This document shows positions 1,320 through 21,214 of a DNA stretch of 22,849 bases, piece after piece; the stretch's first letter is position 1; each line of letters opens with the position of its first letter. The stretch is from a virus. The stretch lies in the IMG/VR virus record IMGVR_UViG_3300029263_001050, positions 1 through 22,849 of that record. The stretch is one strand, 5' to 3'. The translations under genes were made by a program, and so were the position numbers. The notes beneath the pieces were generated by a model, which did no database searches, had not been told where the DNA came from, and saw only the letters and a list, made by a program, of their open reading frames with translations.

Positions 1320-1670
1320 ATGAAACTAGCAGAACTTAAAAACACACTACGAGAAGTAGTAAGAGAAGTAATCCAAGAGGAACTAAAGGATATTTTATTG
1401 GAAGCAGTTAAATCAAACAAGCAACCAATATACGAACAACAATCCTATTCTCCCCCTATACAGAACCAAGCCCCACCTGAGGCTAAACAAAATGTACGAG
1501 AAAGTTACATGAATGTTTTAGGTGATATGAAAAAATCATTTACATCTGGGGATGTAGCTCCAACACAAGGTTTACAAATCAGTGGCCCAGTTGACACTAT
1601 ATCAGAAGGTGGTAAACTACCAGAAGGTGAAGTATCGATAGACCAAATAATGGGTATAATGAATAAATAA
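1320..1670 (+). CDS. Small helical phage structural protein of unknown function
   Basis: 116 residues. Residues 1-31 form a strongly amphipathic, charged helix (MKLAELKNTLREVVREV onward). A Pro/Gln-rich flexible segment follows (about 35-60), then a Gly/Pro-containing C-terminus. I do not recognise a named family. A similar N-terminal helix is common in small proteins encoded just before gp25 in large aquatic myophages, but that is recollection and not a search result. Its TAA shares its last base with the next ATG (1670), so translation is probably coupled to the gp25-like gene. That points to a baseplate or tail-assembly role. It is the first gene of the proposed baseplate operon. Confidence 0.65.
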   Translation: MKLAELKNTLREVVREVIQEELKDILLEAVKSNKQPIYEQQSYSPPIQNQAPPEAKQNVRESYMNVLGDMKKSFTSGDVAPTQGLQISGPVDTISEGGKLPEGEVSIDQIMGIMNK

Positions 1671-2077
1671 TGGCATTCGGAGAAAGACAAATATTTCCTA
1701 ACGATTTACGACCCAGAGTCGCTATTGGTGTAGCTTTACCCTTTAGTGCTCCGGCTGTCTTTGACCAAACATACCAAACTAAGGATGCTATAAAATATAA
1801 CTTAGTTAACTATTTATTAACAAATACAGGAGAACGAATAGCTAACCCAACTTTTGGTGCCGGTTTAAGAAACTTCATATTTGAACAAATAGAAAACGAT
1901 AACTTAGAAGGTTTAGAAGAAACTATACAAATGGGTATAGATCAAAACATACCTAACGTTATTATAGACAACTTAGAAGTAACAGCGAATCCTGATCAAT
2001 ATACTGTAACAGTTTCACTAGAGTATAGTATTGCTCAAACGGGAATAACAGATAACGTTGAGTTAACATTTCAATAA
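1670..2077 (+). CDS. gp25: Baseplate wedge protein, gp25-like (GPW/gp25 family)
   Basis: 135 residues, the usual size for the family. T4 gp25 is the inner baseplate wedge subunit that joins the gp6-gp7-gp53 wedge and resembles the sheath-initiator protein of contractile injection systems. Visible hallmarks are an N-terminal PF-x(n)-AVFD segment, a helix carrying the conserved LLTNTGERIANPTFGAGLR block (residues 50-68), then a helix and a closing beta-hairpin (about 95-135). The Glu-Arg of the GER motif matches the conserved E-R pair of gp25-like proteins. Its stop overlaps the start of the gp6/J-like gene by one base. The gp25-gp6 order is typical of contractile phage tails and anchors the identity of the whole region. 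Confidence 0.93.
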   Translation: MAFGERQIFPNDLRPRVAIGVALPFSAPAVFDQTYQTKDAIKYNLVNYLLTNTGERIANPTFGAGLRNFIFEQIENDNLEGLEETIQMGIDQNIPNVIIDNLEVTANPDQYTVTVSLEYSIAQTGITDNVELTFQ

Positions 2078-3918
2078 TGGCAAAAAAAGTAAAAAGAGAC
2101 ATATCGTATTTAAATAAGGATTTTAGTGATTTTAGAAGTCAGTTAATAAACTTCTCTCAAACCTATTTCCCAACAACCTACACAGACTTTTCACCAGCAT
2201 CGCCTGGTATGATGTTTATGGAGCAAGCATCTTATGTAGGAGATGTTTTAAGTTTTTATTTAGATAATCAAATACAAGAAACCTTTATACAGTATGCTAG
2301 ACAAACAGATAACTTGTTTGATTTAGCTTATATGTTTGGTTACACCCCTAAAGTAACATCATTGGCAACAGTATCAATGGATGTATTCCAAATAGTACCT
2401 GCCAAAACTGTAGGTACAGGATCACTACCTGATTTTAGTTTCGCTTTGGAGTTCCCAGAAAACACAGAAGTTAAAGGAGATAATCAAACCTTTACTATAC
2501 AAGACAATATTGATTTTTCAGTTTCATCTTCTGAAGATCCTACACTAATAACTGTAGCTCAAATAAATGGGGCGACACCAACTTACTATCTATTAAATAA
2601 AAAACGTAATGCATCAGCTGGTAGTGTTCAAACTACTACCTTTTCGTTTGGTGCACATCAAGAATTCCCAACAGTTACCTTACAAGGAACCAATATAGCT
2701 AGAATAGTAGATATATTTGATTCTGATGGTAACGAATGGTACCAAGTTAGCTCATTAGGGCAAGACGCTGTTTATGATAAAATCAAAAACACAAACGTAA
2801 ACGATCCCAATAACTCTAACGGTTCCGAAGATACACCATATATTTTACAACTAAAACAAGTACAAAGACGTTTTGCTACTCGTTTTATAGATGAAACAAA
2901 CCTTCAAATCCAGTTTGGATCAGGTAACGCTGAATCAAACGATGAGGAAATAATACCTAACCCACATAACGTAGGTTTAGGTTTACCTTATACTCAAGAT
3001 AAACTTACGACAGCTTATTCACCTACAAACTTTGTTTTTACAAATACCTATGGTATAGCTCCATCTAATATTACGTTAACAGTTCGATACATAACCGGTG
3101 GTGGTGTTGCGTCTAACGTTGCTGCAAATACGTTAACCAACGTTGACACAACGAATACGACGTTCCTACAATCAACACTAAACGCATCGTTAGCTCAGTA
3201 TGTTTTCGATTCTGTAGCTGTAAATAATGCAGAAGCAGCAACTGGGGGGTTTGATGGGGATTCAACTGAAGAACTAAGACAAAACACAATATCTAGCTAT
3301 GGTACCCAACTACGAAACGTAACTGCAGATGATTATTTGGTACGTACTTTATCTATGCCTTCGAACTTTGGTTCAATAGCTAAAGCACACGTTCAAAAAC
3401 CAAATGATACTAACTCAAATACAACGTTAGATATCTATACACTATCTTATGATATTAATAGAAATCTAAGATCACCCTCAATAGCTTTAAAAGAAAACCT
3501 AACAACATATTTAAATCAATACAAAATGATAGGTGACTCCGTCACTATCAAAAACGCTTACATAGTAAATATAGCTATTGATTTTGAAATAATAACACTA
3601 CCTGACTATAATAATAACGAAGTAATACGCAAATGTCTTACAGCATTAATAGAACTTTTTGATATTACTAAATGGCAGATTAATCAACCTATTATTCTAA
3701 GAAATATAAACGTTTTATTAGATCAGATAACAGGTGTACAGACCGTAAAACAAGTAACAATAACCAACAAAGCTGGTATATCTGAAGGATATTCTCAATA
3801 TGGCTATGACGTTGAAGGAGCTACACAAAGTGGTGTAATATACCCCTCAATCGATCCATCTATATTTGAAGTAAAATATCCTAATAAAGATATTAGTGGT
3901 AGAGTAGTAACATTCTAA
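2077..3918 (+). CDS. gp6: Baseplate wedge protein, gp6/J-like
   Basis: 613 residues, close to T4 gp6 (about 660). Gp6-like proteins dimerise around the baseplate and form its inner ring, linked to gp25. The N-terminus (about 28-110) has the typical DFSPASPGMMFMEQASYVGD segment, followed by a predicted helix where J-like proteins carry the unordered-start region. The centre (about 388-420) carries a GGFDGDSTEELRQ motif and a TQLRNVTADDYLV motif, both diagnostic of the baseplate J central domain. The C-terminus (about 470-580) has alternating helix-strand segments ending in a VLLDQITGVQTVKQV stretch, which matches the J C-terminal domain. The start overlaps the gp25 stop. The next gene begins 1 nt after the stop. 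Confidence 0.9.
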   Translation: MAKKVKRDISYLNKDFSDFRSQLINFSQTYFPTTYTDFSPASPGMMFMEQASYVGDVLSFYLDNQIQETFIQYARQTDNLFDLAYMFGYTPKVTSLATVSMDVFQIVPAKTVGTGSLPDFSFALEFPENTEVKGDNQTFTIQDNIDFSVSSSEDPTLITVAQINGATPTYYLLNKKRNASAGSVQTTTFSFGAHQEFPTVTLQGTNIARIVDIFDSDGNEWYQVSSLGQDAVYDKIKNTNVNDPNNSNGSEDTPYILQLKQVQRRFATRFIDETNLQIQFGSGNAESNDEEIIPNPHNVGLGLPYTQDKLTTAYSPTNFVFTNTYGIAPSNITLTVRYITGGGVASNVAANTLTNVDTTNTTFLQSTLNASLAQYVFDSVAVNNAEAATGGFDGDSTEELRQNTISSYGTQLRNVTADDYLVRTLSMPSNFGSIAKAHVQKPNDTNSNTTLDIYTLSYDINRNLRSPSIALKENLTTYLNQYKMIGDSVTIKNAYIVNIAIDFEIITLPDYNNNEVIRKCLTALIELFDITKWQINQPIILRNINVLLDQITGVQTVKQVTITNKAGISEGYSQYGYDVEGATQSGVIYPSIDPSIFEVKYPNKDISGRVVTF

Positions 3919-15082: not shown

Positions 15083-17941
15083 ATGGCTAAGATACTATCA
15101 AACGCAGGCATAGTTACAGGATTACCGGTAGAGGCAAAACACGTGTCTCAATCGGTTAATGCTCTAACTGCTGCCGAAGCTTACGACATAAACATATCAG
15201 GATCACTAACAGCAAATACACTAACATATCCGTTTGTTGATGGTACAGCTGATCAATCCTTACTTACTGATGGTAGTGGTCAAATCACTATAAGAACATT
15301 AGAAACCGTTCCTACAGCATCATTTGTAACATCATCAGGGGTGTATGGTCCTTATGGGTCTAACTCTATTGTAACATCCTCATATGCTGTAACCTCATCT
15401 TATGCCAACTTTGCTACTCTTGCATCGTCATCTTTATTTTCAATAAACTCACAAAACGCAACCACAGCTACATCAGCATCATACGCTCTTACAGCATCAT
15501 TTGCTTTAAACGGAGGTGGAGGAGGTAGTGGTTCTTTCGCAACAACCGCATCTTCTGCTTTAACCGCCTCATATATTGAGATGGCTAATGCCTATAGACA
15601 AAATATATCAGAATCTATAGCTACAGTAACACACAATAGAGACTCAGAGGATGTTTTAGTCGTAGTTTACAAAGCAACGGGTACTGATGATCCTGTATTA
15701 ATAATCCCATCTAGTGTTACATTAACCGATACCAATACTGCTGTAGTAGCATTTTCTAATATAGTAGAAGGTTACGTAATAGTAACAGATGGTAAAGGTG
15801 TAGCTACAGGTGGTGGGGGCTCAGCAGTAACTGCTTCATATGCATTAACAGCCTCATATATTGAGATGGCTAATGCTTATAGACAAAACGTATCAGGTAG
15901 TAGTGCGACAGTAACCCACAATCGAGACTCCGAAGATGTTTTAGTAGCCGTATACGAAACAACTGGAGGTACTAACCCAGAACTAATCATACCTGCTAGT
16001 ATTATACTTACAAATACTAACACTGCTGAAGTAACATTCGATCCAGGTATCATAGGTTACGTAATAGTGACTGATGGTAAAGGTATAGCCAATAACTCAG
16101 TAACATCTTCATATGCTATTACAGCATCTTATGCCTTAAACGCAGGAAGCGGAGGAGGTAGTAGTAGTGGATCTTATGTATCATCCTCAACTAGTGGTGA
16201 TAATATTACATTCACCAAAGGAGATGGTTCACAAATAACAAATAAAATAATATCATCATCTTACTCTCTTACAGCATCATATGCTTTAAATGGTGGAAGT
16301 GGTGGTAGTAGTAATGCTTATGTATCATCAAGTACTACAGGCAATCAAATAAACTTTAATAGAAGTAGTGGGGGTGTTATCATAACACCTATAATATCTG
16401 CTTCACACGCTACAACAGCTATATCATCATCATATGCTATAACAGCGTCATACTTATTAGGCTTTATACAATCAGCATCATATGCTCTTACATCATCATA
16501 TGCTGTATCATCATCACACGCTGAGTTTGCTGATAGTTCATCATACGCTGTCTTATCATCTACAGCCTCACTAGCTACAACAGCCATAACATCATCATAT
16601 GCTCTTACAGCATCCTTTGTAATAGGATCTATTGAATCAGCGTCATATGCTCTTAGAGCTGAAACGGTTAGAACTGTAACATATCCAGCGAGAAATGATG
16701 ATAGTGTAATCATACAAAAAGGTGATCCAGTTTTTGTTACAGAAGTTAATAATGGTGTATACGATATTAGAAAAGCAGAAGCTTTAGATCCTAATAAAAT
16801 GCCAGCAGTAGGTGTAGCAGCGACAACAGCAGCTTTAGGAGCAAGTGTTGAGATGTTACTAATAGGTGAAATCAAAAACACTAATACGTTTGGTGCTAAT
16901 CCAGGTAGAAATATTTATGTCGCTGCAAACGGTGGCTATTCTCAAACAAAACCACTAGCTCCTGCTCTTATACAACCTATAGGGATTATAGCAGAAGCAT
17001 CAGCAACTGAGGGTGTATTACTTATAAATGGTCCTATGGCAGATATGTCATCAGGTAGTGCTAGTGTACCAACAGCATCTTATGTTTCATCTTCAAATGT
17101 AGATGGACCTTTTGGATTTGATAGTATATTAACTTCATCATATGCTTTAACAGCTTCACACGCTCAAACAGCTATATCATCATCATATGCTATAACGGCA
17201 TCCCACTTAATAGGTACAACCCAATCAGCATCGAATGCTATATCATCGTCATACGCTGTATCATCATCGAATGCTATATCATCGTCATACGCTGTATCCT
17301 CATCTCATGCTTCTTATTCTTTATCATCTTCTATAGCTGAATATACATCTGAATGGAATCTAACAGCTGATGGGACAAATAATTACTTATTTAATGGTCC
17401 AGGATTTACTTCCTCAGCTGCGGATCCTAACATTTATTTAGTTAGAGGACAAAAATATAAGTTTACTAATAATATGGGTGCTCATCCATTCCGAATACAA
17501 ACAACGGTAAATGGCTCAACTGGTACCGCATATGCAAACGGTGTAACTAATAATGATGTTTCAAACGGTACTCTTCTATTTAACGTACCTATGCAGGCAC
17601 CTGATGTACTTTATTATCAGTGTACTTCTCACCCAAATATGGGAGGTAAAATATCTATTCCTCCTGCTGTAACATCATCCTATGCCATAACTTCATCATA
17701 TGCTTTAACAGCATCTTATGTTTTAAGTGATTCAACTAATAGCTCATATAGAGAGTCAGTAAGTGGTACAACTACTTACACCATAGTACATAACCTAAAC
17801 GAAAACTTTCCTATAGTACAAGCATATGAACTAGCTTCACTATCTCAGGAGATACCACAATCCGTAACATCAACAAACGCAAGCACAATATCAGTTTCGT
17901 TTATAAATAACTTTGATGGAACTATAGTAGTAATAAAATAA
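15083..17941 (+). CDS. Long tail-fibre/adhesin with hexapeptide repeats and cupredoxin domain
   Basis: 952 residues, Ser/Ala/Thr-rich. Residues 1-50 form a distinct N-terminal head, probably the baseplate anchor. Residues 95-145, 338-360, 388-402, 436-525, 684-753 and 862-880 consist of hexads of consensus [LIV]-[TS]-[AS]-S-[YHN]-A, likely an elongated beta-structured shaft. A fibre beta domain occurs twice in tandem (about 158-240 and 254-334) and once diverged at the C-terminus (about 886-952). A segment VPTAS-[FY]-V recurs at 76 and 662 with its flanks. Residues 530-650 resemble DUF2190-type domains found in phage fibres. Residues 757-859 are a cupredoxin domain with His801, Cys847, His850 and Met853. 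No peptidase S74 or enzymatic motif is seen. It lies between two motif copies, so it is probably transcribed on its own. Confidence 0.85.
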   Translation: MAKILSNAGIVTGLPVEAKHVSQSVNALTAAEAYDINISGSLTANTLTYPFVDGTADQSLLTDGSGQITIRTLETVPTASFVTSSGVYGPYGSNSIVTSSYAVTSSYANFATLASSSLFSINSQNATTATSASYALTASFALNGGGGGSGSFATTASSALTASYIEMANAYRQNISESIATVTHNRDSEDVLVVVYKATGTDDPVLIIPSSVTLTDTNTAVVAFSNIVEGYVIVTDGKGVATGGGGSAVTASYALTASYIEMANAYRQNVSGSSATVTHNRDSEDVLVAVYETTGGTNPELIIPASIILTNTNTAEVTFDPGIIGYVIVTDGKGIANNSVTSSYAITASYALNAGSGGGSSSGSYVSSSTSGDNITFTKGDGSQITNKIISSSYSLTASYALNGGSGGSSNAYVSSSTTGNQINFNRSSGGVIITPIISASHATTAISSSYAITASYLLGFIQSASYALTSSYAVSSSHAEFADSSSYAVLSSTASLATTAITSSYALTASFVIGSIESASYALRAETVRTVTYPARNDDSVIIQKGDPVFVTEVNNGVYDIRKAEALDPNKMPAVGVAATTAALGASVEMLLIGEIKNTNTFGANPGRNIYVAANGGYSQTKPLAPALIQPIGIIAEASATEGVLLINGPMADMSSGSASVPTASYVSSSNVDGPFGFDSILTSSYALTASHAQTAISSSYAITASHLIGTTQSASNAISSSYAVSSSNAISSSYAVSSSHASYSLSSSIAEYTSEWNLTADGTNNYLFNGPGFTSSAADPNIYLVRGQKYKFTNNMGAHPFRIQTTVNGSTGTAYANGVTNNDVSNGTLLFNVPMQAPDVLYYQCTSHPNMGGKISIPPAVTSSYAITSSYALTASYVLSDSTNSSYRESVSGTTTYTIVHNLNENFPIVQAYELASLSQEIPQSVTSTNASTISVSFINNFDGTIVVIK
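15554..16084 (+). repeat. Tandem duplicate of a fibre beta domain within the 952-residue protein
   Basis: Two copies, about 15554-15802 and 15842-16084, encode near-identical openings (YIEMANAYRQN, then VTHNRDSEDVLV) and similar ends (YVIVTDGKG). Part of the DNA is identical between copies, including the stretch coding for ASYIEMANA apart from third positions at its edges, so the duplication is fairly recent. A third, strongly diverged copy closes the protein at about 17738-17938. Confidence 0.8.
16391..16657 (+). repeat. Dense hexapeptide-encoding repeat, consensus LTASYA
   Basis: This is the densest block of 18-nt degenerate repeats (tcatcatatgctnntacagc-like) encoding A-[VIL]-[TS]-[AS]-S-[YHN] hexads. 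A second dense block lies at 17132-17341, where the hexad A-[IV]-S-S-S-[YNH] runs almost without interruption. The minus strand of this DNA is also open, giving a Tyr-Asp-Asp-rich reading that is only a by-product of the repeat. Confidence 0.75.
17351..17659 (+). other. Cupredoxin-like domain inside the fibre gene
   Basis: Encodes residues 757-859 of the 952-residue fibre. It starts with a Trp-Asn-Leu strand and IYLVRGQKYKF, which is typical of cupredoxin strands, then GAHPFRI (His801) and finally YYQCTSHPNMGGKI (Cys847, His850, Met853). The Cys-x2-His-x2-Met spacing is that of amicyanin and pseudoazurin type-1 copper sites, so all four ligands are present. Similar domains occur in marine phage structural proteins; copper binding itself is inferred. 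Confidence 0.8.
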
Positions 17942-18730: not shown

Positions 18731-19267
18731 ATGATTATACAACAACCCACACTAACTTCTTTTGTAAGTGGTAAAACCATAAAAACCAATGTATCAGGAT
18801 CTTATATTGGGTTTAATGCTACATCATCTAACCCTTCAGCTTCAAACGAAGTTGTTTTAGGTATTGGTGTAACAGGTTCAGGTAACAATACAGTAACTTT
18901 AGGTAATACAAATACAATCCATACAGAAATATATGGTAGTATTTATAAACACCAAAACCTAATAGGTGATAATACTGTTACTCATAACTTAGAGAAGTTT
19001 TACGTATACACCTTAAGTGGTAGTTTTACAGCATCACTTCCTCCATCACCTAATATTGGTGATTCAATAAAGTTATCTAACTTTTCAACTAGTAATACAG
19101 GTTCTAGTAGGGGGTCAGTATCACCTACTAATACCAAAGTTATTGTAGGTAGAAATGGTAATAATATAATGGGGGTAGCTCAAGATATGGGGTTAAACAC
19201 ATATGCTCCTGCCTTTGAAATAATATACACTGAACCAACAAAAGGTTGGGTAATAATAGCTTCTTAA
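18731..19267 (+). CDS. Short trimeric-type stalk protein with YadA-head-like repeat and GDSI domain (A1)
   Basis: 178 residues. Residues 1-20 (MIIQQPTLTSFVSG...) are nearly identical to the start of the gene at 20516. Residues 23-62 hold a SNEVVLGIGVTGSGNNTVTLGN repeat (from residue 38), which resembles the left-handed trimeric beta-roll repeats of YadA-type adhesin heads and phage fibres. Residues 80-178 are one GDSI/NG-IMG domain (LPPSPNIGDSIKL, then RNGNNIMGVAQDM, ending GWVIIAS). No enzymatic motif is seen. Its last 36 nt plus the following 57-nt gap are almost identical to those after the 232-residue paralogue, so its 3' end forms part of a repeated joint. Confidence 0.75.
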   Translation: MIIQQPTLTSFVSGKTIKTNVSGSYIGFNATSSNPSASNEVVLGIGVTGSGNNTVTLGNTNTIHTEIYGSIYKHQNLIGDNTVTHNLEKFYVYTLSGSFTASLPPSPNIGDSIKLSNFSTSNTGSSRGSVSPTNTKVIVGRNGNNIMGVAQDMGLNTYAPAFEIIYTEPTKGWVIIAS

Positions 19268-20515: not shown

Positions 20516-21214
20516 ATGATTATACAACAACCCACCATAACGGCTTCCATAAGTGGAGATAATATAAAATCTAACCCACTTGGGTCTTATATTGGTTTTA
20601 GTGCTACATCCTCTAACCCAACAGCCTCAAACGAAGTTGTTTTAGGTATAAACGTTACTGGTTCAGGTAATAATAGTATTACTTTAGGTAACCCTTCAAC
20701 TCTACGTACTAGGATACTTAATAGTATTGAAACTACAGTTGACGGAGCATATATCGGATACTCTACATCAGCATCAAACTCAACAGCTTCAAACGAAGTT
20801 GTTTTAGGTATTGGTGTAACAGGTTCAGGTAATAACACAGTAACTTTAGGTAACACAAACACTACACTTACTAAAATATTTGGTAGTATTTATAAACACC
20901 AAAAACTAATAGGTGATGGTACTACAACACACAACTTAGAAAAGTTCTATGTGTATACTATAAGTGGTAGTTTTACAGCATCACTTCCACCTTCTCCTAT
21001 TAGTGGAGATTCAATAAAACTTTCTAACTTATCAACAACCCAAACAGGTTCGGATAGAGGAGAAATAACAGCAAGTGCTGCTAGGATCTTAATAGGTCGA
21101 AACGGTAAAAATATAATGGGCTATGCTCGTGATATGGAGTTAGATTATTTCTCTCCTTCGTTTGAGTTAATATACTCAGAACCAACAGATGGTTGGGTAA
21201 TAATATCCTCTTAA
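20516..21214 (+). CDS. Stalk protein with two YadA-head-like units and GDSI domain (A2)
   Basis: 232 residues, a paralogue of the gene at 18731 with exactly 54 extra residues. It carries two SNEVVLG-x2-VTGSGNN units (about 23-70 and 77-124) where the paralogue has one. The C-terminal GDSI/NG-IMG domain (about 134-232) is conserved: LPPSPISGDSIKL, RNGKNIMGYARDM, GWVIISS. The first 20 nt match the start of the paralogue exactly. The second unit is more like the single unit of the paralogue than like its own neighbour, so the first unit looks inserted. It is probably a trimeric stalk protein co-transcribed with B1 and C1. Its 3' end forms the second copy of the joint repeat. Confidence 0.75.
   Translation: MIIQQPTITASISGDNIKSNPLGSYIGFSATSSNPTASNEVVLGINVTGSGNNSITLGNPSTLRTRILNSIETTVDGAYIGYSTSASNSTASNEVVLGIGVTGSGNNTVTLGNTNTTLTKIFGSIYKHQKLIGDGTTTHNLEKFYVYTISGSFTASLPPSPISGDSIKLSNLSTTQTGSDRGEITASAARILIGRNGKNIMGYARDMELDYFSPSFELIYSEPTDGWVIISS
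20582..20887 (+). repeat. Tandem 162-nt stalk unit within A2
   Basis: Two in-frame units, about 20582-20725 and 20744-20887, are offset by 162 nt (54 codons), which equals the length difference from the paralogue at 18731. The core (aacgaagttgttttaggt) is identical in both units and also in the paralogue. Confidence 0.8.

Follow-up and report, generated by a model that had tools for sequence, protein, structure and literature searches.

A cupredoxin domain with an intact predicted copper-type site is a portable virion module in marine phage tail fibres and baseplate connectors

We identify a segment of a phage tail fibre protein as, almost certainly, a cupredoxin domain in which a predicted type 1 copper-type site (His-Cys-His-Met) is intact, and find that marine phages use this domain as a portable virion module, in tail fibres as well as in baseplate connectors. 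The domain lies in a 22.8-kb IMG/VR record (the window, meaning the whole stretch of DNA analysed), where it spans positions 17351–17659 of the plus strand, encodes 103 residues with no stop codon, and corresponds to residues 757–859 of a 952-residue modular tail fibre protein (15083–17941, plus strand). The overall explanation we prefer, with a probability of about 0.55, is that the domain is a selected cupredoxin metal site carried as a portable module and loaded with copper, with a structural lock as its likeliest role. An initial annotation had noticed a complete cupredoxin site within the fibre, an observation that our analysis confirms; its interpretation as a whole is partly supported.

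The four proposed ligands are all present at their assigned positions in the fibre translation. His801 (codon 17483–17485) sits in an HPF motif, and Cys847, His850 and Met853 form a C-terminal metal loop, CTSHPNM (17621–17641), which has the amicyanin-type spacing C-x2-H-x2-M that had been read from the sequence. Cys847 is the sole cysteine of the entire protein, which contains only 11 histidines, and six-frame translation of the window yields the C-x2-H-x2-M motif a single time, while 4 of 20,000 shuffled versions of the fibre sequence contain it. Around the domain the fibre is built from repeated parts, all encoded on the plus strand: two near-identical beta modules recognised by self-similarity (residues 164–241, 15572–15805, with a match to phrog_21918, and residues 259–336, 15857–16090, with matches in fibre relatives), a middle domain (residues 530–655, 16670–17047), an upstream linker with many S-[YH]-A hexad repeats (residues 664–756, 17072–17350), a downstream hexad linker (residues 860–879, 17660–17719) and a C-terminal module that resembles the beta module (residues 880–952, 17720–17938). 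S-[YH]-A hexad linkers separate the beta modules and the C-terminal module, and five fibre relatives (L198–L202) contain the same modules in shuffled arrangement.

The cupredoxin assignment rests on a structure model and a family profile because the single-sequence HMM signal is weak. Single-sequence searches of Pfam and NCBIfam and with phmmer returned no match above cut-off, and the NCBIfam amicyanin family TIGR02657 (E = 0.034) scored 14.5 bits and did not reach its curated cut-off of 110.2 bits. An AlphaFold2 model of the domain, built with 13 sequences, has a pLDDT of 92.1 and a pTM of 0.84, and the model and its structural matches display the Greek-key beta sandwich of about 100 residues that characterizes the cupredoxin superfamily. 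In domain numbering, predicted strand E86–91 ends in the ligand Cys, the His and Met ligands lie in the Cys91–Met97 loop before strand E98–102, and His45 is positioned between strands E35–41 and E47–50. The ligand topology of the model is canonical for cupredoxins; the initial annotation had looked to structure prediction for the ligand geometry, and what the model bears out is the fold and ligand topology, with geometry judged from model topology and alignment. Using VIA-align, we observed that all 50 of the 50 best matches listed are copper cupredoxins with Z-scores up to 10.1, led by the N-terminal cupredoxin domain of a three-domain nitrite reductase (2dv6; Z 10.1 with an rmsd of 1.9 across 87 residues) and followed by rusticyanin (Z 9.8) and then small laccases. 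Foldseek comparison with the PDB gave modest E-values with copper proteins at the top of the list. A profile of 27 diverse relatives (A4) searched against PDB sequences matched nearly exclusively copper proteins, including nitrite reductase (1.4e-6), plastocyanin (5e-5) and amicyanin (9e-5) as well as rusticyanin and auracyanin, and placed the C-x2-H-x2-M loop in exact register with the amicyanin loop and the first His in register with the copper His of plastocyanin 2plt. The relation to cupredoxin families that the initial annotation had expected from an HMM search is thus found by the family profile, with the single sequence below cut-off.

The closest annotated phage family is phrog_677 ('baseplate wedge tail fiber protein connector'), which comprises cyanophage gp9-type proteins. 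Positions 308–408 of its 412 are the cupredoxin domain, its C-terminal part matches the fibre domain with E = 3.6e-37, and the gp9-type proteins likewise have the His-Cys-His-Met ligands. The match to the window protein is confined to the domain (within 300–410 of 412) and the gp9 body is absent, so the window fibre is not a gp9. Among cellular proteins, amicyanin has the same C-x2-H-x2-M loop and shares with the phage domain a Tyr two residues before the Cys and a Thr directly after it (YxCTxH), which are found in 124 and 110 of 125 phage sequences, respectively. However, amicyanin is a soluble electron carrier, whereas the phage domain is part of a virion protein and reads HP, not HN, at the first ligand. 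Classical cupredoxins (plastocyanin, azurin, amicyanin) usually have Asn directly after this His; in 122 of the 125 phage domains the position is Pro, a replacement that may shift the redox potential. The best structural matches, rusticyanin and the N-terminal cupredoxin domain of Hyphomicrobium nitrite reductase, are 16–18% identical to the phage domain, and rusticyanin has longer ligand spacings. One phage cupredoxin copy (L121, 1490–1804) has a metal loop two residues longer (CTTGGHGGM). Cyanophage petE, encoding plastocyanin, is also a phage-borne cupredoxin, but it is an auxiliary gene (PMC2984593) and as such a separate metabolic gene, not a virion module. Metal within a phage fibre, as proposed here, is known from HxH tail fibres, which bind iron (T4 gp37 and Alteromonas phage R22Y; PMC11705849); those fibres are intertwined and hold octahedral iron, in contrast to the cupredoxin fold and His-Cys-His-Met set of the window domain.

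To define where the module occurs, we collected relatives from IMG/VR, phage genomes and MAGs. Each of the 17 cyanophage genomes tested contains between one and five domain matches (17/17), and in the cyanophages examined its commonest place is the C-terminus of gp9-type connectors. Further copies reside in proximal fibre proteins, in structural proteins annotated as S8 peptidases and in a structural protein encoded close to the portal gene, and current database labels for domain-bearing proteins read only connector, tail fibre or unknown. Six matches on MAG contigs were considered as cellular homologues and set aside, as the contigs look at least partly phage-like; one of them (L092) encodes a protein of gp9 size with the domain at its end. 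Separately, two giant-virus 'beta-sandwich' proteins in BFVD (Pithovirus and Marseillevirus; A0A481Z6J5 and A0A481YWX9) are distant structural matches, with E-values of about 1e-6 to 1e-4.

The initial annotation had further described the domain as an inserted module flanked on both sides by hexad repeats. S-[YH]-A repeats do stand on both sides in the window, but this is not the general setting of the domain: of 156 occurrences, just 7 have hexads on both flanks, which confines this context to the window and a small set of relatives. The fibre relatives L198–L202 have the beta modules and the C-terminal module in common with the window fibre and lack the cupredoxin, and one of them, L201, additionally has its N-terminus and middle domain, again without the cupredoxin. 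These related fibres indicate that in the window fibre the domain is an exchangeable module between hexad linkers. We considered L201 as a clean empty site and rejected it because other modules occupy the corresponding place; insertion is therefore borne out as exchangeability and as absence from related fibres, but not as a clean excision. An assignment of the window phage to the cyanomyoviruses (Kyanoviridae) was also dropped, since its gp6-like baseplate wedge protein (1670–3918) is closest to those of Flavobacterium phage immuto (44%) and Microcystis phage Mel-JY01 (41%); a genome-wide search of these two phages did not find the domain.

The ligands are retained across highly divergent copies. 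All four (H, C, H and M) are present in 9 of 9 representatives at <40% mutual identity, and a tree of 125 unique domains implies a single change in each ligand column, against a per-column median of 20. Conservation alone is not peculiar to the ligands, as several non-ligand columns in the same 125 sequences, among them Tyr at Cys-2 (0 changes) and Phe38 (1 change), are equally conserved. Part of the homologue sample was gathered with patterns that contain Cys and His, and because one earlier scan used such ligand-containing patterns we repeated it with a ligand-free N-terminal alignment of the first 44 residues of the domain only. The repeated scan recovered 61 unique domains with His-Cys-His-Met, and its exceptions were two truncated matches, one partial match and one degenerate fragment. 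In this degenerate fragment, which belongs to a second copy (L003/L108), Asn stands in place of Cys and Arg in place of His. A mid-region alignment (A3) was too weakly conserved to serve for searching. Outside the domain, cysteine is missing altogether from 77 of the 145 ORFs. Free loss of Cys or His among homologues, named at the outset as evidence that would speak against a copper site, was not seen: ligand loss is rare, occurring once in the main family, where all four are lost together, and otherwise in fragmentary or weakly aligned extra copies. The proposal that the ligands themselves are selected, as opposed to mere reuse of the fold, is accordingly supported by the fold, the profile and near-absolute ligand conservation.

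A ligand-free lineage further informs what the site is kept for. In L074 two copies stand in tandem, the first kind intact and the other carrying Lys, Ser, Asp and Pro at the four ligand positions, and a search with this ligand-free copy retrieved sisters in L205 and L206 that are 78% identical to it and carry Asn, Ser, Asn and Pro; the lineage thus comprises KSDP (L074/L204) and NSNP (L205/L206) forms that differ at two of the four former ligand positions. The ligand-free copies (L074 2650–2973 and L205 2001–2324) occupy an equivalent place in related fibres, adjoining the intact copy in L074 and standing alone in L205. AlphaFold2 predicts the same sandwich for the L074 ligand-free copy (pLDDT 84.6), a prediction that is not fully independent since the alignment used consists mostly of intact relatives. 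Loss of all four ligands with persistence of the predicted fold indicates that the ligands are not required for folding and argues against a purely structural need for them, and their loss at once, with variation at the former positions, suggests that elsewhere they are retained for a common purpose, a metal. Conservation and joint loss together are good evidence for selection on the metal site, and we consider it very probable that the site is maintained by selection for a metal.

Which metal this is, and whether a metal is needed at all, can be weighed against the same data. Copper is the probable occupant and would be taken up in the cell or after the particle has left it, but phage proteins are put together in the cytoplasm, a compartment with very little free copper, and this counts against a copper-loaded site. 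A site for zinc or iron instead, or a Cys-His-Met set kept for packing only, appears unlikely. Zinc can occupy Cys/His sites, and some neighbouring residues are as conserved as the ligands; against another metal stands a ligand set identical to that of cupredoxins in residues and spacing, axial Met included, within a cupredoxin fold, and against packing the disappearance of all four ligands as a unit while the predicted fold persists. It is highly improbable that the motif arose by chance in a generic Ig-like fibre domain, a reading that could appeal to a single sequence below every Pfam and NCBIfam cut-off and to the modest Foldseek E-values but is contradicted by the VIA-align matches, profile A4 and ligand conservation in 125 sequences; model, profile search and conservation all indicate cupredoxins, and the rarity of the motif in shuffled fibre sequence points the same way.

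For the role of a copper-loaded site, we tentatively favor a metal lock that would stiffen and protect an exposed fibre or baseplate module, at somewhat less than even odds. The presence of the module in many virion proteins and in unrelated phages favors a host-independent function, and for this reason the lock is ranked first, with a redox switch and a copper Trojan horse next. The ligand-free lineage, whose predicted fold persists, weighs against a purely structural role. As a redox switch, the copper site would respond to light, oxygen or the host surface and gate fibre release, adsorption or baseplate triggering. The axial Met is as conserved as the other ligands, consistent with such a switch, and axial Met is a weak ligand that tunes potential more than it binds. 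The commonest cyanophage location of the domain, the gp9 connector between long tail fibre and baseplate, would also suit a switch, as would the reported light dependence of cyanomyovirus adsorption (PMC2984593). We nonetheless regard a switch as unlikely, given that the domain also occurs in the window phage, whose closest baseplate relatives are phages of Flavobacterium and Microcystis, that it is found at several virion locations and that no electron partner is visible. Slightly less likely still is that host outer-membrane copper uptake or copper proteins recognise the fibre copper or the cupredoxin surface. This would parallel the published Trojan Horse proposal for iron in the tips of HxH phage fibres (PMC11705849) and fits a window copy that sits in a fibre, but many annotated copies belong to baseplate connectors or proximal fibre parts and not to receptor-binding tips, and the same module is present in phages of different host groups.

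The cupredoxin fold is already known and its virion setting is new; a literature search of open-licence PMC papers turned up no previous report of such domains in the fibres or connectors of phages. On sequence and structure prediction, these data suggest that a bound metal, most likely copper, is carried by many ocean phages. Should copper be bound, widespread cyanophages and other marine phages would have a metalloprotein as a structural module, a copper counterpart to the iron of T4-type fibres. The domain also provides a concrete candidate metal site at the fibre–baseplate junction and a possible link between phages, seawater copper and light- or redox-dependent adsorption. A broader reading, in which many abundant marine phages place copper-loaded blue-copper domains in their fibres and baseplates at several copies per genome and the copper functions in infection, either as a trigger that responds to redox state or metal or through host contact based on copper, is rather doubtful at about one chance in four; on that reading, phage particles would make up a copper-carrying fraction of seawater.

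Elsewhere in the window, two paralogous small fibre-like genes that begin MIIQQPT (18731–19267 and 20516–21214) have a C-terminal part similar to phrog_4302, and each is followed by a different ORF with FSQFFPA near its start.
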